Part shown: positions 13,491 to 28,171 of the stretch, in pieces
How positions within the stretch are numbered: position 1 is the stretch's first letter
How the letters are laid out: each line of letters begins with the position of its first letter
Source: a virus
Virus record (IMG/VR): IMGVR_UViG_3300046517_001948
Location: 1-36,370 of that record
DNA: 36,370 bases
Strand: one strand, 5' to 3'
Program-made: the position numbers and the translations under genes
The notes under the pieces: generated by a model
Seen by the model: only the letters and a program-made list of their open reading frames with translations
Database searches by the model: none
Told to the model about the DNA's origin: nothing

Positions 13491-14918
13491 CTGGCTAACA
13501 AACCCCAGACCGTCGTCATCGGCTTCAAGCCGCAGCCTGGGCCGCAGGTCGCCTTTCTCAAGGCGCCCTTCGACGCCGTCATCTATGGCGGCGCCCGTGG
13601 CGGCGGGAAGAGTTACGCGACGCTGGGCGAGTTCTGGCTCCACGCCGAGCGTCACGGCCCCCACGCCCGCGGCCTGATGGTGCGCAAGACCCGCGAGGAT
13701 TTGAAGGACACCATCGAGACCGCCCAGCAGATGTACGGCTCGGCGGCGCAATGGAACGACCAGAAGAAGTTCTTCCGCTTCCAGGGTGGCGCCATGCTCA
13801 ACATGGCCTACCTCGAATCCGACTCCGACGCCCAGAACTACCAGGGCTGGTCCCTGACCCGCGTCTACGTCGAGGAACTGACGCAGTACGCCGACTCCAA
13901 GGCGATCTTCAAGCTGTTCGCCACCCTGCGCAGCGCCGTGCCGGGTATCAAGTGCCAGTTCCGCGCCACCTGCAACCCCGGCGGCCCCGGCCACCACTGG
14001 GTCAAGCAGTGGGCCATCGACCTCGGCCCGATGCGCCCCACCACCGATCCCCGCACCGGCCTCACCCGCGTCTTCATCCCGGCCAAGGTCACCGACAACC
14101 CCGCCTTGCTCAAGAACGACCCCGGCTATATCAACAGGCTGCGCGCCAGTGGCTCCGAGGCCCTCGTCCGCGCCTGGCTGGAGGGCGATTGGGATGTCAT
14201 CGAGGGGGCTTTTTTCCCGGAGTTCGACCGCAAAAAGCACGTGCTCGAAGCCTTCCGTATCCCTGCCGACTGGGTCCGTTTCCGTTCCATGGACTGGGGC
14301 AGCGCGAAGCCTTTCTCTGTCGGCTGGTGGGCTCACGTGCAGGATGATTTCCCCATACTTAGCCGGCAAACAATCCTGCCTCGCGGTGCGATTGTCCGCT
14401 ACCGCGAGTGGTATGGCGCCGCCGCCGCCAACGAGGGCCTCCGCCTTCCCGCCGAAATGGTGGGCGCCGGCATCGTGGCGCGCGACAATCGCGAGGATAT
14501 CGCCTACGGGGTGCTGGACCCGGCGGCCTTCGCCGTCATCTCCGGCCCTTCCATCGGCGAGACCCTCGGCAGGGCCGGCGCCTTCTTCCGCCGCGCCGAC
14601 AACGCCCGCGTCAGCCGCGATAAGCGCATGGGCGGCTGGGACCAGGTCCGCGCTCGGCTGCGGGGCGACGCCGACGGACGCCCGATGATTTACTTCTTCG
14701 ATACCTGTCGTGATACCATCCGCACCCTGCCGATGATGCAGCACTCGGAGCACAACCCCGAGGACCTCGATACCGACTCGGAGGACCACGCCGTGGATGA
14801 AGTCCGTTACGCCTGCATGAGCAGACCTTTTCGCTCGACCGGCTTCGTCACCGAGCACGAGGACAAGAACCCCTTCCTCATCCGCAACGCCTTCAAGCTC
14901 GACGAACTGGACCTCTGA
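13491..14918 (+). CDS. terL: Terminase large subunit (no canonical start; probable CTG)
   Basis: This 475-aa packaging ATPase/nuclease has Walker A IYGGARGGGKSYATL (K40 counting from CTG), Walker B RVYVEEL (about 124-130), a coupling motif near RATCNPGGPGH, and an RNase H-like nuclease domain beginning RFRSMDWG. The first ATG in frame (13677) lies after Walker A and cannot be the real start. Between the TAG at 13488-13490 and that ATG there is no ATG, GTG or TTG. The only reasonable initiator is CTG at 13491 (LANKPQTVV), with GAGG 9 nt upstream. Readthrough from the KTSC gene is the alternative. Function is certain; the start is not. Confidence 0.9.
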   Translation: MANKPQTVVIGFKPQPGPQVAFLKAPFDAVIYGGARGGGKSYATLGEFWLHAERHGPHARGLMVRKTREDLKDTIETAQQMYGSAAQWNDQKKFFRFQGGAMLNMAYLESDSDAQNYQGWSLTRVYVEELTQYADSKAIFKLFATLRSAVPGIKCQFRATCNPGGPGHHWVKQWAIDLGPMRPTTDPRTGLTRVFIPAKVTDNPALLKNDPGYINRLRASGSEALVRAWLEGDWDVIEGAFFPEFDRKKHVLEAFRIPADWVRFRSMDWGSAKPFSVGWWAHVQDDFPILSRQTILPRGAIVRYREWYGAAAANEGLRLPAEMVGAGIVARDNREDIAYGVLDPAAFAVISGPSIGETLGRAGAFFRRADNARVSRDKRMGGWDQVRARLRGDADGRPMIYFFDTCRDTIRTLPMMQHSEHNPEDLDTDSEDHAVDEVRYACMSRPFRSTGFVTEHEDKNPFLIRNAFKLDELDL

Positions 14919-14920
14919 GC

Positions 14921-17245
14921 ATGGCCACGAAATTTTTCGACGACACCCCCAAGGTCGCCGGCACCATTAGCGCCGAGGCCGGCAAGGCCGACACGCCGCC
15001 GGTCAACCCCGAGGAACCCCCAACCGACCCCACCGACGAGGTCGACGCGCAATACTGGGAGCGCTGCCTCGCCGACGCCGAGCGCGCCGAGCAGGACTGG
15101 CGCCAGCGCGGGCGTGAGATCATCCGCATCTACCGCAACGACGGCAGCTACACCGCGCTCAACAAGAAGCGCAACGTCAACGACATCGTCTTCAACATCC
15201 TTTTCTCCAACACCGAAGTGATGCTGCCCAACATCTACGCCAACCCGCCGGACCCCGTCGTCCGCTCCCGTTTCATCAAGAAGACCACCCCGGTTCCGCA
15301 ACCCCCGCCTCTGCCTCCGGCCCCGCCGGCGATGGCACCGCCGCCAGGGCCGGGGATGCCGGGTGGACCGCCGGCGGCGGCCCCTCAGGCACCGCCACCG
15401 GCGCCACTGCCGCCGACCCCGCCCAGCCCCAATCTTGGCGTCGACATCAACATCCAGGGCCTGCACCCGCCGCAGCCGCCCGTCCAGCAACCGCCGCCAC
15501 CGCCAACCCCTCCGCCCCCCGAGGAACCGCAACCCCCGGCGATGCCGGCGATGATGCCGGCGCCGCCGCCGCCGGGGATGCCGGACCAGAAGGACGTCGA
15601 AACCGCCGCCGCCGTCATGGAGAAGGCGCTCGGCATCGTCGTCGACGACACCACCAGCCACGAGGCGATCAAGGCCGCCGTCAAGGACATGCTGCTGCCA
15701 GGCCGCGGCACCTGCCGCGTCCGCTGGTATCCGCAACTGCAGAGCCAGCCCGTTGCCGACCCCGTCATGGGCGGGAACCTGAGCCTCCCCGGCAGCCCTC
15801 CTCCCGCGCCGGGCGAGGCTCCGCTGACCGAGGACGTCAAAATCTGGGAGACCGTCAGCGACGAATACGTCTACTGGGAGGACATCCTCTACGATCCCGT
15901 CCGCCAGTTCACCGACGGTTCGTGGGTCGCCTTCCGCCACCTGTTCGACGAGAAATCGCTGTTGGCCGAGTTCGAGGACAGCCAGCAGCTGCAGACCCTC
16001 AAGGCCGCCAACAAACTGCAGGACGTGCTGAAATGGACCGACGAGTCCGCCGCCAAGTCGGTGGTCGGCGGCGGCAGCCCGATGAAGACCGCCAACAAGC
16101 TCGGCGACGTCATCAAGAAGGCGATGGTCTGGGAAATTTGGAACCGCACCAAGACCAACGTCATCTGGTTCATCCGCGAGGTCGACGGCCTCGTGCTGCG
16201 CGTCGACCCCGACAGCCTCGGCCTTTCCAACTTCTTCCCCGTCCCCAAGCCGCTGCTGGCGGTCACCACCACCGACTCGATGCTGCCGCGGCCTTACTAC
16301 GACCTCTACCGCCACCTCGCCGCCGACCTCGACGAGACCTCCCGGCAGATTTCGCGCCTCACCGACAAGATCAAGGTCAGGGGCGGTTACAACGCCTCAA
16401 ACCGCGATATCGCCGCCATCCTGACCGCCGAGGACGGCAAGATGCTGCCTGTCGCCGGCGTCGACCTCATCAATGGCGGCCTCGCCAATCACATCTGGCT
16501 GGTGCCGATCATCGAATGGGTCAACGCGCTCAAGGAGCTTTACCTCGCCCGCGAGCAGATCAAGCAAGCGATCTACGAGGTGATGGGCATCTCCGACATC
16601 ATGCGCGGCAATTCCAACCCCTACGAGACCGCCACCGCGCAGCGCATCAAGGGCACGATGGGCACCAACCGCCTCGCCGAGCAGAAGCGCGTCTGCGCCA
16701 ATTTCGCCCGCGAGCTTCTGCGCATGAAGGCCGAAATCATCGCCAAGAACTTCGATGCCTCGACCCTTACGCGGATGACCGGCGAGGAGGTCACCCCCGA
16801 AGTCGAGGCCATCCTCAGGGACGACTTCCAGAGGACCTGCTCCATCGACGTCGAGACCGACTCCACTGTCGCCGTCGACGAGCAGGGCGAGCAGGACGCC
16901 AATGGCAAGATGATGATGGCCATGCAGGGCATCATGCAGGGCGCCGCCGGCCTTCTCCAGGCCGGCATCCTGCCGCCGCCGATGGTCGCGCAATTCTCGC
17001 TCGAACTGATGAAGATGATGCTGCATCCGCTGAAGAACTCCCGCGGCGTCGTCGAACTGATCGACGACTTCCAGGAGCAGATACAGGCGCTGGCCAAGAT
17101 GCAGGCCATGCAGCCGCCGCCTCCGCCCGGGCCACCCCCCGGCGCTGGAGCCGGCCCGCCCGGTGCCCCTCTTACTATCCCGCCGGGCGGGCCGCCGCTG
17201 CCGAATGGCGCCGGCCCACCGCCGCCAGGAATGCCGATGCAATGA
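14921..17245 (+). CDS. Portal protein with polyproline insertion
   Basis: This 774-aa podovirus-type portal is the dodecameric ring through which DNA enters and leaves the head. The core is recognisable: RGREIIRIYRND, NDIVFNILFSNTEVMLPNIY, VRWYPQL, DEYVYWEDILYDPVRQF, and QAIYEVMGISDIMRG. Residues about 123-221 are an inserted Pro/Ala/Met-rich run (about 99 aa, bases 15287-15583) between SRFIKKT and DQKDVETAA. The last 45 residues form a second Pro/Gly-rich tail. The rest fits portals of about 650-700 aa. It follows terL by 2 bp. Confidence 0.85.
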   Translation: MATKFFDDTPKVAGTISAEAGKADTPPVNPEEPPTDPTDEVDAQYWERCLADAERAEQDWRQRGREIIRIYRNDGSYTALNKKRNVNDIVFNILFSNTEVMLPNIYANPPDPVVRSRFIKKTTPVPQPPPLPPAPPAMAPPPGPGMPGGPPAAAPQAPPPAPLPPTPPSPNLGVDINIQGLHPPQPPVQQPPPPPTPPPPEEPQPPAMPAMMPAPPPPGMPDQKDVETAAAVMEKALGIVVDDTTSHEAIKAAVKDMLLPGRGTCRVRWYPQLQSQPVADPVMGGNLSLPGSPPPAPGEAPLTEDVKIWETVSDEYVYWEDILYDPVRQFTDGSWVAFRHLFDEKSLLAEFEDSQQLQTLKAANKLQDVLKWTDESAAKSVVGGGSPMKTANKLGDVIKKAMVWEIWNRTKTNVIWFIREVDGLVLRVDPDSLGLSNFFPVPKPLLAVTTTDSMLPRPYYDLYRHLAADLDETSRQISRLTDKIKVRGGYNASNRDIAAILTAEDGKMLPVAGVDLINGGLANHIWLVPIIEWVNALKELYLAREQIKQAIYEVMGISDIMRGNSNPYETATAQRIKGTMGTNRLAEQKRVCANFARELLRMKAEIIAKNFDASTLTRMTGEEVTPEVEAILRDDFQRTCSIDVETDSTVAVDEQGEQDANGKMMMAMQGIMQGAAGLLQAGILPPPMVAQFSLELMKMMLHPLKNSRGVVELIDDFQEQIQALAKMQAMQPPPPPGPPPGAGAGPPGAPLTIPPGGPPLPNGAGPPPPGMPMQ

Positions 17246-17263: not shown

Positions 17264-17422
17264 ATGCCGTTCAAGACCAAGCCCAAGAAAGCCGTCAAGA
17301 AACCGCCGTCGAAACCGTTCGGTAAAACCGCCGCCAAGACGCCGTTCGCCAGCACCCCGAAGGCGCCGATGCCGGGAGCCAAGGCGGGATTTCCACCCAA
17401 GAAGCCAATGCCGGGGTGCTAG
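17264..17422 (+). CDS. Small Lys/Pro-rich basic protein
   Basis: This 52-aa protein begins MPFKTKPKKAVKKPPSKPFG, then KTAAKTPFASTPKAPMPGAK, and ends KPMPGC. It is extremely basic and likely disordered. AGAGGAGAAACGATT precedes the ATG, an excellent ribosome site, which argues that the gene is real. It could bind DNA or the Pro-rich portal, but no family is recognised. It lies 18 bp after the portal gene. Confidence 0.65.
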   Translation: MPFKTKPKKAVKKPPSKPFGKTAAKTPFASTPKAPMPGAKAGFPPKKPMPGC

Positions 17423-17425
17423 GAA

Positions 17426-17713
17426 ATGAATTGGATCGTCGTCATCTTCATCCTGCTTGCCGGCACCGTCATCGCCTTCGGCCAGAGCCAGCCGCCACCG
17501 CCGACCCTGATCCAGCAATTGCAGTCGTTCCTCAGTTACGAACTGGACGAGGAGGATGAATATCCCCAGCCCAACTACCACACCTACCGGGCGCAAAGGC
17601 TTCAGGGACAGTTGGCTACGGCAAATGCTGCGGCTGCTGCAGGGCACCCACTACCACCACAGCTTAATGAGCATGGTGTTATCACCCCGCTCTACCCACC
17701 CTCGGGCAAGTGA
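17426..17713 (+). CDS. Small exported or membrane-anchored protein
   Basis: This 95-aa protein has an N-terminal hydrophobic segment, NWIVVIFILLAGTVIAFG (residues 2-19), a signal peptide or anchor. SQPPPPTLIQQLQSFLSYEL follows, then an acidic EDE patch and a Pro-rich end (PLPPQLNEHGVITPLYPPSG). It lies just upstream of the endolysin, so a role in lysis (anchor, holin regulator or spanin component) is plausible but unproven. The start is 3 bp after the preceding stop. Confidence 0.6.
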   Translation: MNWIVVIFILLAGTVIAFGQSQPPPPTLIQQLQSFLSYELDEEDEYPQPNYHTYRAQRLQGQLATANAAAAAGHPLPPQLNEHGVITPLYPPSGK

Positions 17714-18296: not shown

Positions 18297-18750
18297 ACCC
18301 GGCAAGCTCGAACGCGCGGCCAAGGTCGTCTCGTCGCTGACCCTGTCCAACGTCATGATCATCGCGCTCTTGGCGGTTATCGCGGTGCCGGTCTATGTCG
18401 TCTACCGCGCGCTTGGCGACGAGAAGCTGCTCGACCGCCTCCTGTCCACCTACGAGGAGCATGATTCGAAGAGCGGCTGCGCGCTGCGCCACGTCAAGGC
18501 GCGCGGCGGACCCGATCTGTGGGGCATCTCCTCCGGCTTCTCGTTTACCGGCGCCGACCGCTGGTATGTTAATGTCCTGCTCGACCACGACCCGAACGAG
18601 GAGGAGGTCGAGAGCTATTGTCAATCGCTCAAGCTTATCGCCGATTCCATGCTGGCTCGCGGTCATGATGCTGCTGGCGTCGACCAGCCGGGCGGAAACG
18701 CCGAAATTCTCGGCGGACCAGTGCCGGGTGCTGAAACAGACCGGCGTTGA
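18280..18750 (+). CDS. Single-pass membrane protein, inner-membrane spanin candidate
   Basis: This 156-aa protein starts at GTG 18280, overlapping the endolysin by 17 bp. Residues about 20-43 (LTLSNVMIIALLAVIAVPVY then VVYRAL) are a transmembrane helix. A soluble domain follows with KLLDRLLSTYEEH, two Cys and WYVNVLLDHDPNEEEVESYC. Its position after the endolysin and the presence of an overlapping out-of-frame small gene (18665) resemble an Rz/Rz1 pair. The coiled coil is short, however, so the spanin call is tentative. Confidence 0.55.
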   Translation: MSEQPEPGKLERAAKVVSSLTLSNVMIIALLAVIAVPVYVVYRALGDEKLLDRLLSTYEEHDSKSGCALRHVKARGGPDLWGISSGFSFTGADRWYVNVLLDHDPNEEEVESYCQSLKLIADSMLARGHDAAGVDQPGGNAEILGGPVPGAETDRR

Positions 18751-18796
18751 CACGACGGGCATCTGCCCGCCACCGCCGAGGAAGGAGAAGAAATGA
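18665..18796 (+). CDS. Nested small Cys-motif protein (Rz1-like position)
   Basis: This 43-aa frame starts inside the preceding membrane protein gene in another frame (ATG 18665 or 18668) and ends at 18796. It reads MMLLASTSRAETPKFSADQC, then RVLKQTGVDTTGICPPPP and a Lys tail. The first ten residues could be a very short export signal, but there is no lipobox. The motif QCR-x-L-[KR]-Q-x-GV-x-T-xx-x-C recurs in the lipoprotein at 19479. That similarity across frames and loci is the main support that this frame is translated. Confidence 0.5.
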   Translation: MMLLASTSRAETPKFSADQCRVLKQTGVDTTGICPPPPRKEKK

Positions 18797-18969
18797 AGTA
18801 CAAATTCCGCGCACCCGATCCCGACCCGCGCCAGTGGCGCTTGCAACGCGAACTGTCCCAAGCCGAACTGGAGGCCCTGGCCCGCGACGGCTCCTGGAAG
18901 CAGGAGCACTTCCTGATCCAAATCCTCGCCGAGAACCTGCTGAAGGAGGAAGCCGCGGGGAAGAAATGA
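18793..18969 (+). CDS. Small hypothetical helical protein
   Basis: This 58-aa protein begins MKYKFRAPDPDPRQWRLQRE and ends with a helical LSQAELEALARDG...HFLIQILAENLLKEEA part. GGAAGGAGAAGAA precedes the ATG, a strong ribosome site, and the start overlaps the stop of the nested gene (ATGA). It is soluble, charged and of unknown function. It is separated by 2 bp from the stop of the antisense HNH gene. Confidence 0.65.
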   Translation: MKYKFRAPDPDPRQWRLQRELSQAELEALARDGSWKQEHFLIQILAENLLKEEAAGKK

Positions 18970-18971
18970 GA

Positions 18972-19439
18972 TCAGCCTCTGTTATGACGCTGCTCAAAGT
19001 AGGTGGCCCACCGACAATTTCCCGGAAAATAGCCTTTGTGATTGTCGATGCGGTCCAGCGTCAGGCCAGCAGGCCGATCCCCCATATCAGCATAGAAGTT
19101 TTCAAAGAACTGCCAGCGTTCGCAAACGGGGCGATCCTTGTATCTGTCATAGCCCTTTTGCGACGGATGGGTGCAGCGATTCCACATCGACGCCCAGCTT
19201 CGATAGGCTCCGGTATGACTCCCAACCCTTGCTTGCCCATGTGTCACGGGGCCGGGTATTTGCAGACAGCCGCACGATTTCGTCTGACCGCAGCGAAGGT
19301 TGTTTCCGCCGACCACCTTCGTGCCTCCGCAGTCGCAACGGCACAGCCAGTAAACGATTTTGTTTTTGGCACGGTGAGCCGGGGATACGGCGATCAATCG
19401 ACCAAAACGTTGCCCGGTGATATCGATGAATTTGGGCAT
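18972..19439 (-). CDS. HNH homing endonuclease (antisense)
   Basis: This 155-aa protein begins MPKFIDITGQRFGRLIAVSP. It has a zinc-binding part, LCRCDCGG...SCGC, and an HNH core, GLTLDRIDNHKGYFPGNCRW followed by AT...QRHN, as in free-standing HNH/AP2-type homing endonucleases. A near-perfect AGGAGGT precedes the ATG. It lies antisense within the lysis region, between the small gene 18793 and the lipoprotein 19479. It is a selfish element that would cleave phages lacking it. Its sequence is less GC-rich than its surroundings, fitting recent arrival. Confidence 0.85.
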   Translation of the reverse strand: MPKFIDITGQRFGRLIAVSPAHRAKNKIVYWLCRCDCGGTKVVGGNNLRCGQTKSCGCLQIPGPVTHGQARVGSHTGAYRSWASMWNRCTHPSQKGYDRYKDRPVCERWQFFENFYADMGDRPAGLTLDRIDNHKGYFPGNCRWATYFEQRHNRG

Positions 19440-19478
19440 CGGACCTCCTACACAGGTTCCTTGTCAAGTGGCGGGTCG

Positions 19479-19949
19479 GTGCGTCAACACCGGCCTGTCG
19501 CGCATTATATCACAAGGCTCATTCCGGTAGTATTGCTCGTCTCATGTACGACAACGGGGCCAACCGATTTCGACGAGTATCAGTGCCGGCTCCTGCGCCA
19601 GCGCGGCGTCAACACCTCCAATCTGTGCCGGCGTCCACCGTCGGCGTCGAAGGCATCGAACGGAGGCGCCAGTGAAGGAGCGAGTGCTGGTGGCGATGGT
19701 GGGGCTGGTGGTGGTGGCGCTCCTAACCCTCCTGTGGGTGGAGGCAACCCTCCACTAGGCGGCGGCACCACGCCACCGACGCCGGAACCGCCGATCACCG
19801 AGCCACCGCCCACCGGAGGTGGTGGCGAGCCACCGCCGACCGGCGGCAAGCCGCCTGGCGGCATCGACAGTGTCAAGCCGCCGGGAACACCCGGCGACAG
19901 CGGCGGCAAACCCGACGATAATGGAGACAGGCCCCATGCCCGGACCTGA
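19479..19949 (+). CDS. Lipoprotein with Gly/Pro-rich tail, outer-membrane spanin candidate
   Basis: A GTG start at 19479 gives 156 aa. Basic MRQHRPVAHYITR leads into the hydrophobic LIPVVLLVSC, a good lipobox with lipidated C23. TDFDEYQCRLLRQRGVNTSN and LC follow, then a long Gly/Pro/Ser-rich tail to the end. Proline-rich lipoproteins in lysis cassettes are typical of o-spanins (Rz1), which fuse outer and inner membranes. The Shine-Dalgarno sequence is weak, and the HNH insertion upstream may have displaced the original one. The motif around the two Cys repeats in the 18665 protein. Confidence 0.6.
   Translation: MRQHRPVAHYITRLIPVVLLVSCTTTGPTDFDEYQCRLLRQRGVNTSNLCRRPPSASKASNGGASEGASAGGDGGAGGGGAPNPPVGGGNPPLGGGTTPPTPEPPITEPPPTGGGGEPPPTGGKPPGGIDSVKPPGTPGDSGGKPDDNGDRPHART
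19672..19758 (+). CDS. Possible nested 28-aa membrane peptide
   Basis: GTG 19672 is preceded by GGAGG with 5-nt spacing and reads 28 codons: MKERVLVAMVGLVVVALLTL then LWVEATLH, a textbook single transmembrane helix with a basic N-terminus. It lies wholly inside the Gly/Pro-rich tail of the lipoprotein in another frame. The ribosome site makes it credible; the skewed codons of a Gly/Pro tract can also produce Val/Leu runs by chance. Confidence 0.4.
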   Translation: MKERVLVAMVGLVVVALLTLLWVEATLH

Positions 19950-21131: not shown

Positions 21132-21406
21132 CGGTCTACGTCTACCGCGGCGGCAAGGTGGTGCCGAAAAAGTCGAAAATGAAACGCGCCGGCGGTGCCT
21201 ACGTCTCGCGCTTCGAAAGTTACGAAAGCCCCATCGATGGGGCTTCGATCTCGTCGCATCGGCAGCGTGATCTGGATTTGACCAGAAATAACGCCTATGA
21301 CGTGCGGGATGTAGGGCCAAATCACGAGTTCACTCGTGCTAAGGAGGCCCGGAAAGCTGAGAATGCCCGATCCGACGGACCAAGACAGCTTGATTTCTGG
21401 CGCTGA
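21128..21406 (+). CDS. Conserved head-module protein
   Basis: This 92-aa protein starts at TTG 21128, overlapping the previous stop as TTGA. It reads MTVYVYRGGKVVPKKSKMKR, then SRFESYESPIDGASISSHRQ, NAYDVRDVGPNHEF and ends QLDFWR. The SPxDGxxIxSR and Nxx-D-x-RDVG-xx-HE pattern recurs in small proteins encoded just upstream of scaffold and capsid genes of many podoviruses. Their function is not established. It probably takes part in head assembly. Confidence 0.65.
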   Translation: MTVYVYRGGKVVPKKSKMKRAGGAYVSRFESYESPIDGASISSHRQRDLDLTRNNAYDVRDVGPNHEFTRAKEARKAENARSDGPRQLDFWR

Positions 21407-22511
21407 CGACAGCGCCGAGGGGTCTTCGCCGCCTTCCCTGCGCGAAATCGCCGAGAAAGCTTACGACGAAGGCTCCCGCCCGGAGCGCGAGGCGCCCACC
21501 GACGACGGTGGTCGAGCCCGCGACGACCGTGGACGTTTCGCCCCGAAAGAGTCGAAAACAGGTGAAGCAGAGCGTGAAGCTCCCAGCCCTGAACCAAAAG
21601 CCGAGACCCCAGTACCGACCGATCCAGCTTTGAGCAATCGGGCGCCGGACCACTGGAGCGCGCAGGACAAGGCCGTCTTCGATAGGTCGCCGCCGGAAGT
21701 CAAGGAGATGCTTCAGCGGCGCTATTCCGAGATGGAAGCGGACTACACGCGCAAGTCTCAGGCCAACGCCAGTGCAGTCCAAGCCGTCAACGCGTTAGCG
21801 CCGATCTTCAACGACCCCGACATCCAGCGGTCGCTCGCCAGCCTGAATGTGCACCCCGTCGGTGCCATCCAGCAGTGGGCGTCCTTCCACAAAAGGGCGG
21901 TCAGCCCGAATGTGCAGGACCGGGCCGCCTTGATGATCGACCTCGCCGAGCAGATGGGCTTCGACCCAGCCAGGCTGTTTGCCGTCAATCGCCCGCCGGA
22001 ACCGCAACTCCCCCCGGGAGTGGCCGATGATCCGGCGATCCGTCACTTTGCCAACCTTTACGGCAAGACGGCCAGCGAAATGCAGTCCCTGCGTAACCAA
22101 ATCCAAAACATCCAAGCCACCGAGCAGAAGAAGTACGAGCAGGAAACCTTGAAAGTCGCCCGCTGGAACATCGACCAGTGGGCCGACGAGAAAGGCCCCG
22201 ACGGCGCACCCGTCAGGCCCGATTTCAATGAGCAACTGCCGTATCTGCTTAAGTTGTTTCAGGCCGATCCCAACTACGATCTGGCTGAAGCATACGACAT
22301 CGCGCGCAGCATGAACCCCAAGACGCGGGGTGCAGCGCTTGCCGCTGAGAGGGCAAGGATGCAGTCGCAGCAATCGGTCGCCAAGGCCCAGGCTGCGAAC
22401 CGTGGCAATCTCCGGGGGGTCACCTCCCCGGTATCGAAGCCCACGGCGAGGACGGGGAACGGAGGTCTGCGCGACGTATTGGACGCATCAGCTGATGAGG
22501 TTGGCTTCTAG
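21363..22511 (+). CDS. Scaffold-like head assembly protein
   Basis: This 382-aa protein begins MPDPTDQDSLISGADDSAEG. A disordered acidic/Pro-rich N-terminus (1-100) is followed by a helical region (RAPDHWSAQDKAVFDRSPPE, RRYSEMEADYTRKSQANASA, then NQIQNIQATEQKKYEQETLK) and a basic C-terminus. Composition, size and position directly before the major capsid gene fit a scaffolding protein, which guides capsid assembly and then leaves. It overlaps the previous gene by 44 bp. AAGGAGG lies 15 nt upstream of the ATG, so an upstream GTG at 21336 is also possible. Confidence 0.75.
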   Translation: MPDPTDQDSLISGADDSAEGSSPPSLREIAEKAYDEGSRPEREAPTDDGGRARDDRGRFAPKESKTGEAEREAPSPEPKAETPVPTDPALSNRAPDHWSAQDKAVFDRSPPEVKEMLQRRYSEMEADYTRKSQANASAVQAVNALAPIFNDPDIQRSLASLNVHPVGAIQQWASFHKRAVSPNVQDRAALMIDLAEQMGFDPARLFAVNRPPEPQLPPGVADDPAIRHFANLYGKTASEMQSLRNQIQNIQATEQKKYEQETLKVARWNIDQWADEKGPDGAPVRPDFNEQLPYLLKLFQADPNYDLAEAYDIARSMNPKTRGAALAAERARMQSQQSVAKAQAANRGNLRGVTSPVSKPTARTGNGGLRDVLDASADEVGF

Positions 22512-22526
22512 AAATAGGAGCCTCCA

Positions 22527-23480
22527 GTGGCCGAACCGACCGTCAACCAGCTAGTCGCTACTACGCTGGCTAACTACCATAAACAATTCGCCGACAACGT
22601 CTCCAATTCCAATGCCGTGACCGCGCTTTTGCGCCAAGGCAACCGGATGCGCAGCGTCGACGGCGGACGTTCGATTGCCTGCCCGCTGACCTACGCCGAG
22701 GAGACGTTCGCCTGGTACATGGGCAGCGAACTTCTTTCCAGGGCCGTCAAGGAAACCATCTCGGAAGCCGACTACGAGCCGGCCAACGCGGTGGCCTCGA
22801 TCACCCTCAGCGGTCCCGACCTGGCCAAGAACAAGGGTCGCGAGCAGGTGCTCAACCTGCTCGAAGGCAAGATGACCAACGCCGAAAACACCATGAAGAA
22901 CAACATTACCAAAGCGATTTACGGTGATGGTACCGTCGCCAAGAGCTTCGCCGGCCTGAAGGCGTTCGTCACCGACGCCGGCACTGGCATCGTCGGCGGC
23001 ATCGACTCGACGACGTGGGTGTTCTGGAAGAACCAGTTCGCCTCCATCGCCAGGGCGACAGGACTGCAATACCCGGCCCTCAAGGCCGGCCTCAACAGCC
23101 TGTGGATCAAGCTGATCCGCGGTACCGAACATCCCGACTTGGTGCTGGCCGACGCCGAAATCTACTCGACCTACGAGGGCGGCCTGCAGGAAAACCAGCG
23201 CTACGCCGACGCCGCCTTGGGTTCTCTCGGTTTCGAGACCCTCAAGTACAAGTCGGCGGCGATGGTCTTTGACGGCGCCGCCACCGGCCTCGCCGGAGGT
23301 TATATGTTGAACACGAAATATATGAAGTTCGAAATCTACGATGGACGGAATTTCGAGGCGCTCGATCTTCCCGACCAGAGCGTCGACATGGATGCGATCA
23401 CCAAGCACATCGCCTTCATGGGGGCGCTCACCCTCAGCAACCGTTCAATGCAGGGGAGAATCCTGCTGACGGGCACCTGA
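22527..23480 (+). CDS. Major capsid protein
   Basis: This 317-aa protein begins with GTG 22527 after TAGGAGCCTCCA. It contains NRMRSVDGGRSIACPLTYAE, then ETFAWYMGSELLSRAVKETI, and GGYMLNTKYMKFEIYDGRNF near the end, with the overall layout of a HK97-fold phage major capsid protein of about 310-340 aa. Its place right after the scaffold and before head-tail genes supports this. It forms the icosahedral shell. Confidence 0.82.
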   Translation: MAEPTVNQLVATTLANYHKQFADNVSNSNAVTALLRQGNRMRSVDGGRSIACPLTYAEETFAWYMGSELLSRAVKETISEADYEPANAVASITLSGPDLAKNKGREQVLNLLEGKMTNAENTMKNNITKAIYGDGTVAKSFAGLKAFVTDAGTGIVGGIDSTTWVFWKNQFASIARATGLQYPALKAGLNSLWIKLIRGTEHPDLVLADAEIYSTYEGGLQENQRYADAALGSLGFETLKYKSAAMVFDGAATGLAGGYMLNTKYMKFEIYDGRNFEALDLPDQSVDMDAITKHIAFMGALTLSNRSMQGRILLTGT

Positions 23481-24567: not shown

Positions 24568-25284
24568 ATGGCCCAAGGCATATTGAAGAGCATCTTCGGC
24601 GGTGGCATTCCGCAAAACGCGCAGGGGCGCAGACCGGCCTCGATGAGCGACCGCGACGCCGCCGCTCGCGACACCGTCTATCGCAAGCCGGCGGCCAAGG
24701 CGGCCCCGGCCAAGTCCAGTGGTGGCGGTGGCGGCGGTCACAAGAAGCATGGCGGCGGTGGCGGCGGCCCGCTCACCACGTCCGCGATCCCAACAGCGCG
24801 GCCCAATACGACCCTCGGCGGCACCCCGACAGCCGGTTACGAGCCTATTGGCAACGATCCTCGCGGTACGCCGGACCCTTTGCAGCCACCGATGGTGCCG
24901 ATGATGCCGCCCCTCACCGGGGTGCCGCCGGACCTGCTGAACCCCGGCCCCAATCTGACACTCGGCGGGACGCCCACCCAAGGTTACGGGTCGCCTTCGA
25001 CCTTCCCAGGTCGGCCCGACATTCCGCAGACGCCGCCCACAGGCCCCGGTGGAACGCCGCTCGACGCCGGCAACATGCGCGGCAGGCCCGATCCGATGAT
25101 GCCGCCGATGATGTCGCCAACCAATCCCACCAGCCCTAGCCGCGATGAACTGGCGGCGATCATGCAGCAGCCGGGCATCCTGAGTTCCTTGAATGGCGGC
25201 GCCAATGGCCTGCCGTTCGGCAAGGCGCTCGACGCCGCCGGCCAGAAATACCTGCCCTCCATCTTCGGGGGCGCCTACCGGTGA
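24568..25284 (+). CDS. Gly/Pro-rich low-complexity virion protein
   Basis: This 238-aa protein begins MAQGILKSIFGGGIPQNAQG and has a His/Lys island inside Gly runs (residues about 51-67). It carries two copies of the unit TLGGTPT-x-GY (near residues 81 and 131) within a Pro/Met-rich middle. A folded-looking C-terminus reads DELAAIMQQPGILSSLNGGA then FGKALDAAGQKYLPSIFGG. AAAGGAGAAGAGCG precedes the ATG. Its position fits a minor tail or internal protein; no family is recognised. Confidence 0.65.
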   Translation: MAQGILKSIFGGGIPQNAQGRRPASMSDRDAAARDTVYRKPAAKAAPAKSSGGGGGGHKKHGGGGGGPLTTSAIPTARPNTTLGGTPTAGYEPIGNDPRGTPDPLQPPMVPMMPPLTGVPPDLLNPGPNLTLGGTPTQGYGSPSTFPGRPDIPQTPPTGPGGTPLDAGNMRGRPDPMMPPMMSPTNPTSPSRDELAAIMQQPGILSSLNGGANGLPFGKALDAAGQKYLPSIFGGAYR

Positions 25285-27685: not shown

Positions 27686-28171
27686 ATGAAGGTGGATTTC
27701 TATCCGCTGCGCAGCGACGCCGTCGCCATCCTCTCGGCGGCGACCGGCATCGACTATTCCAGCACCGAGTTCTCCAGGGAGCACGAGTGGTTCTGCTGCA
27801 CCTCGCGCAACGAGTTCAACCAGGTCGCCCTGGTCATCGTCTTCGAGTTCAAGTCCCGCTACGACGCCCACGTCTCGACGGTGCTGGTCGACCACCGGGC
27901 GCTGACCCGCCGGCTGCTGGCCACCGTCATCGGCGCCGTCTTCCAGCGCGCGACGCGCATCACCGCGCTGGTCGATCCCGCCAACGAGGTCGCCATCGGG
28001 CAGATGTGGCGCATGGGCTTCAAGCACGAGGGCTACCTCAGGCGCGGTCTCGGCGACCGCGACGCCTTACTGTTTGGGCTGCTGCCGGAGGAATGCCCCT
28101 ATCTCGTCGGCAAGGCTTTCCGCATCGTCAGGGTCGAGGCGACGCACCCAACCCACCCCGGAGTGAACTGA
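27686..28171 (+). CDS. GNAT-like internal virion protein (T7 gp13-like)
   Basis: This 161-aa protein has an acetyltransferase-like fold: VALVIVFEFKSRYDAHVSTV, LTRRLLATVIGAVFQRATRI, then PANEVAIGQMWRMGFKHEGY followed by LRRG. The last part is the GNAT beta6-alpha4 region (xxGFxxEGxLR). In podoviruses such proteins are encoded next to the ejection genes (T7 gp13) and are needed for virion assembly, with no proven enzymatic role. CAGGAGGCTGCTTAG precedes the ATG. Confidence 0.75.
   Translation: MKVDFYPLRSDAVAILSAATGIDYSSTEFSREHEWFCCTSRNEFNQVALVIVFEFKSRYDAHVSTVLVDHRALTRRLLATVIGAVFQRATRITALVDPANEVAIGQMWRMGFKHEGYLRRGLGDRDALLFGLLPEECPYLVGKAFRIVRVEATHPTHPGVN

Follow-up and report, generated by a model that had tools for sequence, protein, structure and literature searches.

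The DNA analysed here, referred to as the window, is the whole stretch of 36,370 nucleotides (positions 1 to 36,370 of IMG/VR virus record IMGVR_UViG_3300046517_001948). It encodes a portal protein whose gene starts at 14921, directly after the end of the large terminase gene at 14918, and further downstream a candidate scaffold protein (21336-22511) and the major head protein (22527-23480). The following features of the portal gene, all on the + strand, are used below:

14921-17245, + strand: portal protein gene (Mx8-type, PHROG 12082); the 774-residue open reading frame spans 14921-17242
15257-15283, + strand: conserved basic base of the arm, VVRSRFIKK, at the end of a wing strand; R117 and F118 are invariant in an alignment with 43 relatives
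15287-15583, + strand: proline-rich arm, T123-P221, 99 residues with 49 Pro, predicted to be disordered
15431-15463, + strand: aliphatic, strand-like island within the arm, NLGVDINIQGL (residues 171-181); related islands occur in a subset of relatives
15584-15643, + strand: wing helix that follows the arm and is conserved (DQKDVETAAAVMEKALGIVV); T228, A229 and A230 are invariant, and its counterpart in the model of relative L065 is H133-151
15737-15835, + strand: second, shorter Pro-containing portal loop (residues 273-305), of variable length across the clade
17114-17242, + strand: Pro-rich C-terminal tail (residues 732-774, 21 Pro in 43 residues), found clade-wide

The protein matches the PHROG 12082 'portal protein' family with an E value of 4.4e-123, and the phage records matched by the portal and by the major head protein of the Mx8-type head module are for the most part the same. 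A comparison with the Pfam family PF23899 (SU10_portal) gave a partial match (546-701) of 21.1 bits, below the curated cut-off of 30 bits. Judged by sequence, the window protein is a portal of PHROG 12082 within an Mx8-type head module. The portal identity proposed in an earlier sequence-only reading of this DNA is thus upheld by the PHROG match, by the position next to the terminase gene and by the portal fold of the relative L065 (see below). Kinship with Mx8, together with fold matches to the portals of short-tailed phages, suggests a short non-contractile tail (podovirus morphology). In the neighbouring large terminase gene (13491-14918, + strand), the Walker A motif GGARGGGKS lies upstream of the first ATG (13677), where the frame is open; since the stretch from the preceding stop to 13677 holds no ATG, GTG or TTG, and a CTG only directly after the stop, this terminase may use an unusual start.

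The arm lies in frame at 15287-15583, bounded without a gap by SRFIKKT (116-122) and DQKDVETAA (222-230), i.e., it is the 99-residue insertion inside the portal that the sequence-only reading had described. That reading called it dominated by Pro, Ala and Met, which holds for proline as the main residue (49 of 99) and alanine as the second (11) but not for methionine, a minor component (6) that follows glutamine and glycine (7 each). Of its proline codons, 33 of 49 are CCG, and the best stop-free 99-codon stretches in the five other frames would encode 24-31 Pro each, compared with 49 in the arm. A genome-wide tendency towards proline was ruled out, as most window genes contain 2-7% Pro and few others exceed 12%, namely 17426-17713 and 18747-19949 (both approximately 12.5%) and 24568-25284 (16.8%). 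The last of these, a 238-residue open reading frame on the + strand with a PMVPMMPPLTGVPP stretch, has the highest Pro content outside the portal region and gave no match to PHROG.

It had been considered earlier that the insertion might prove to be an assembly artefact. This does not hold, as portals that are 97-100% identical and have the same 99-residue arm are encoded on contigs from four other metagenomes (L002, L003, L004 and L006). In addition, the tandem-repeat score of the DNA is weak (40, with 66% matches), and the Pro codons of 87 arms are mixed (CCG 47%, CCC 25%, CCT 16% and CCA 12%), more so than in the portal body. The four other metagenomes, the weak repeat score and the mixed codons rule out both codon-repeat slippage and an assembly artefact. 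No support was found for an arm that is absent from the virion protein because it is spliced, bypassed or cleaved out. Such removal is highly improbable, since the frame is open and selection acts at the amino acid level in all arms (see below). Signs of an intron, intein or bypass were not found, the arms contain no Cys, and intein-like blocks were not seen by eye; the sequence is compatible with proteolytic removal.

An IMG/VR scan yielded 180 relatives, 80 of which were kept, while a scan with the alignment yielded at least 415, and further scans gave more distant members. Arm length was counted on two scales, either from the residue after SRFxKKx, as in the earlier reading, or from the position that follows the invariant RF. 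On the first scale, the arms of the first set measure 46-158 residues, plus L065 at 9 (L072 left out). On the second, 87 of the 88 portals with a fully delimited site (window included) have arms of 50-162 residues, and L065 has 13 (TSPSSMPPKPGRP). Proline makes up 33-51% of each of the 87 arms and approximately 43% overall. The comparison with related portals that had been proposed as a check on conservation thus shows the arm to be kept clade-wide. L065 (L065:3164-5176) is the sole clade portal with a nearly absent arm, and its Pro-containing tail is kept; it can serve as a natural comparison only if its assembly is right. In L072 (L072:1645-4055), the portal lies in two frames around the arm, reflecting a frameshift or an assembly error, and this portal was excluded from the arm statistics.

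The closest known counterparts are the Mx8-type portals (Mx8p45 of Myxococcus phage Mx8, Ruegeria phage 45A6 and phage ctMlz233; PHROG 12082), the body of which is homologous to that of the window portal (25-33% identity, tblastn). These phages also share a homologous major head protein and the terminase-portal gene order with the window, whereas their portals have a loop of 6-13 residues at the arm site and a Pro-poor tail in place of the 99-residue arm and the Pro-rich tail. The same loop length, typically in the form RRF-KDEDPL-GKAA, was found throughout an outgroup of approximately 40 sequences, drawn from Mx8, 45A6, ctMlz233, BUCT555, Rhizobium, Bradyrhizobium and Microcystis phages, prophages of metagenome-assembled genomes (MAGs), IMG/VR contigs and Hyphomicrobiales genomes. 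A FastTree phylogeny computed from the portal body without the arm unites the 92 clade members in a monophyletic group (support 0.908) on a long stem (0.90), with L065 nested deep within the armed clade. The simplest history would be a single gain on the stem, followed by one shortening in L065. As read from alignment and tree, the arm is an ancestral, clade-wide trait that replaced a wing loop of 6-13 residues.

Among 222 portal pairs with usable dS, the median dN/dS is 0.27 for the arm (5-95%: 0.16-0.37) and 0.08 for the body (0.05-0.13), values that serve as a guide only because the pairs are not independent and low-complexity alignments are approximate; dS is nearly equal in the two parts (1.07 and 1.03, respectively). 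An in-frame dN/dS of 0.27 indicates that the arm is translated and loosely constrained. The exchange partners of Pro in the arms are G, A, M, S, L and Q; Arg takes this place in 0.1% and Lys in 0% of cases. Arg accounts for 0.3% of arm residues versus 6% in the body, charged residues for 3%, and Trp and Tyr, like Cys, are absent; the median net charge is -3 when the first six residues are excluded. A single base change turns a Pro codon (CCN) into an Arg codon (CGN). Since Arg is nearly absent although one mutation away, and since the Pro codons are mixed, the amino acid composition appears to be selected. The constraint on the arm thus looks like one on composition, and its looseness at the level of sequence would fit a mere spacer equally well.

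These data also bear on the idea that the arm is a tolerated low-complexity expansion, in which a permissive loop would gather GC-rich Pro and Gly codons without a specific job while selection keeps the chain soluble and unstructured. The highly variable sequence and length of the arms, their many indels, a protein-level rate approximately three times that of the body, and the GC-rich genomes are as this idea predicts. Neutrality, however, predicts common loss, which is observed in one of 88 portals, and the dN/dS, the avoidance of Arg and the mixed Pro codons speak for selection at the amino acid level, so that tolerated expansion is considered rather unlikely. Polyproline runs are also known to stall ribosomes, and the arm could be a translational device, with stalling after the N-terminal wing segment until EF-P acts, tuning the folding or amount of the portal. 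The arms do contain a median of 11 PPP triplets (10 in the window arm), but PPP is hardly more frequent than in within-arm shuffles (945 versus 812), and it is PGM, GLP and PPG that are over-represented. Moreover, a few prolines suffice for a pause, for which 50-160 residues are not needed. A translational device is therefore very unlikely as the reason for the arm; EF-P-dependent stalling is possible, and would explain little of the arm composition.

For the window portal, AlphaFold2 (AF2) gave a poor model (mean pLDDT 59, pTM 0.34). The arm is without secondary structure in it, with residues 136-192 below 50; despite the poor model, the sole significant matches in a fold search were portals. 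For this reason, the short-armed L065, which is approximately 58% identical to the window portal, was folded as a stand-in, and a 65-row alignment gave a good model (pLDDT 79, pTM 0.73). This model shares its fold with the solved portals of Pan3 (Z 28.3, rmsd 3.9, 391 aligned), KHP30 (Z 28.1), GP4 (Z 27.3), N4 (Z 25.7) and P22 (Z 24.9), with Z scores of 23.7-28.3 for the full set including SU10. A sequence-profile search of solved structures found no portal, whereas the fold search did. In the L065 model, strand E111-116, the first wing strand, precedes the arm site and helix H133-151 follows it. A matching strand-loop-helix can be made out at ADNQQDSDAAD in SU10 (90-100), RPKDGARPDAAD in P22 (81-92) and VRDPGGKKDV in R4C (99-108). 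The profile alignment of this site was best among single portals for SU10 (E 0.0014, reported probability 17%) and suggestive for R4C and KHP30; for P22 it failed, and the match was made by eye. Overall, the arm has in all likelihood no fixed fold and forms a disordered, partly polyproline-II-like chain.

Because the P22 portal wing comprises residues 6-319 and 417-524 (PMC12005531), the arm site is placed in the wing. In the portal of Dinoroseobacter phage R4C, the wing loop 99-108 has an apparently equivalent strand-loop-helix position, and it is reported to reach the layered genomic DNA and to touch it via R100 and K105 (PMC10276861). The arms are therefore probably located inside the capsid, around the wing, with the match to R4C as the weak link in this chain of homology. 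The R4C loop has ten residues; the arm of the window portal is far longer, and past its base Arg and Lys are avoided. Portals are dodecamers, so the ring very probably carries twelve arms, and it is plausible that these project from it. Scaffold, terminase and capsid had been named earlier as possible binding partners. With an interior-facing loop, as homology suggests, scaffold or capsid would be possible neighbours, to which DNA may be added. Terminase is an unlikely partner, since it docks on the portal clip, outside the capsid.

The earlier reading was also correct in noting a second Pro-rich segment at the C-terminus, where residues 732-774 contain 21 Pro. The median Pro fraction of the tail is 0.38 in the clade and 0.02 in the outgroup, and the tail has the same distribution as the arm. 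A basic Lys/Pro protein noted immediately downstream exists as a 52-residue open reading frame (17264-17422, + strand), but a link to the arm is not supported. It is clearly kept solely in the near-identical L003, L004 and L006, with a looser candidate in L024, and it was ruled out as part of the arm trait as it is missing from most of the armed clade.

An arm of this kind appears to be new among described portals. None turned up among 50,697 phage records, cultured phages included, or in the open-access papers searched, in agreement with the earlier remark that no such portal had been described. A search of open-access papers for proline-rich or polyproline portals returned nothing relevant, and the word proline is absent from the main text of an evolutionary study that places Mx8-like portals (PMC10386132). 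The genome contigs examined (one pattern scan; 397 genomes of one order) contained no armed portal either, an absence that carries little weight. By sequence, the portals of P22, SU10 and KHP30 have short loops at the arm site, and none of the three has an arm. In the P22 wing, two loops, the 'trigger' (226-277) and the 'hammer' (456-505), have been linked to assembly or to a change of conformation (PMC13386823); unlike the arm, these lie elsewhere in the wing and are ordered and charged or hydrophobic, not polyproline. The arm is thus a clade-specific elaboration of a known portal type, real and selected rather than an artefact, and not a new kind of system.

As to its role, twelve disordered, non-sticky arms could form a flexible collar around the wing. 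During assembly, such a collar would act as filler and spacer where the 12-fold ring faces the scaffold or coat of the 5-fold vertex, and after packaging it might hold the innermost DNA turns away from the portal body. It would then be the reverse of the R4C Arg/Lys loop, which holds DNA; because the composition of the arm is opposite to that of a DNA-binding loop, exclusion rather than binding is suggested. A collar is consistent with the agreement of 87 portals in the site, length class and composition of the arm, and in P22 the wing is the portal part that meets the scaffold (PMC12005531). L065, if correctly assembled, may indicate that at least one virus manages with 13 residues. A flexible interior collar that aids assembly or genome ordering is tentatively favoured here, at somewhat less than an even chance. 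The fuller proposal, namely that twelve selected polyproline arms act as an interior entropic collar that orders scaffold or innermost DNA by exclusion and was gained once on the stem together with the Pro-rich tail, would make the arm a novel type of portal part; it is possible but more doubtful.

Alternatively, the arm could be a flexible tether, in which the proline chain would only provide reach for a strand-like island that docks on an internal partner (scaffold, major capsid protein or ejection protein, for example). Along with the tolerated expansion, this is the main rival of the collar. Candidate docking islands are DINIQGL, DIGINVTGL, DVNIRVTTED and similar segments. A strict strand motif is present in 14 arms, 39-52 residues before the arm end, that of the distant L064 among them, and close variants of this motif are seen in the window island and in several others; in P22, moreover, portal and scaffold meet in the wing through a mainly hydrophobic contact (PMC12005531, PMC13386823). 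Most arms, notably those of the large L037-L073 group, lack an island, however, which makes a tether an improbable explanation.

The portal belongs to the best conserved machines found in tailed viruses, and its loops are generally regarded as ordered points of contact. In the present clade, sampled with approximately 90 viruses, each subunit retains at one fixed site an arm that is long and disordered and avoids charge. With relatives that have loops of approximately 6 residues as a comparison class, and L065 as a natural short-arm case, the role of disorder at the portal vertex becomes testable, e.g., in ring assembly, the 12-to-5 symmetry mismatch or the packing of the innermost DNA.

Two further genes of the window were noted. 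A 155-residue open reading frame (18972-19439) lies on the - strand within the structural cluster and is, by eye, a putative mobile HNH/AP2-type phage endonuclease. At 27686-28171 (+ strand), an acyl-CoA N-acyltransferase-like gene is located among the virion genes (phrog_4470, E 6.9e-9).
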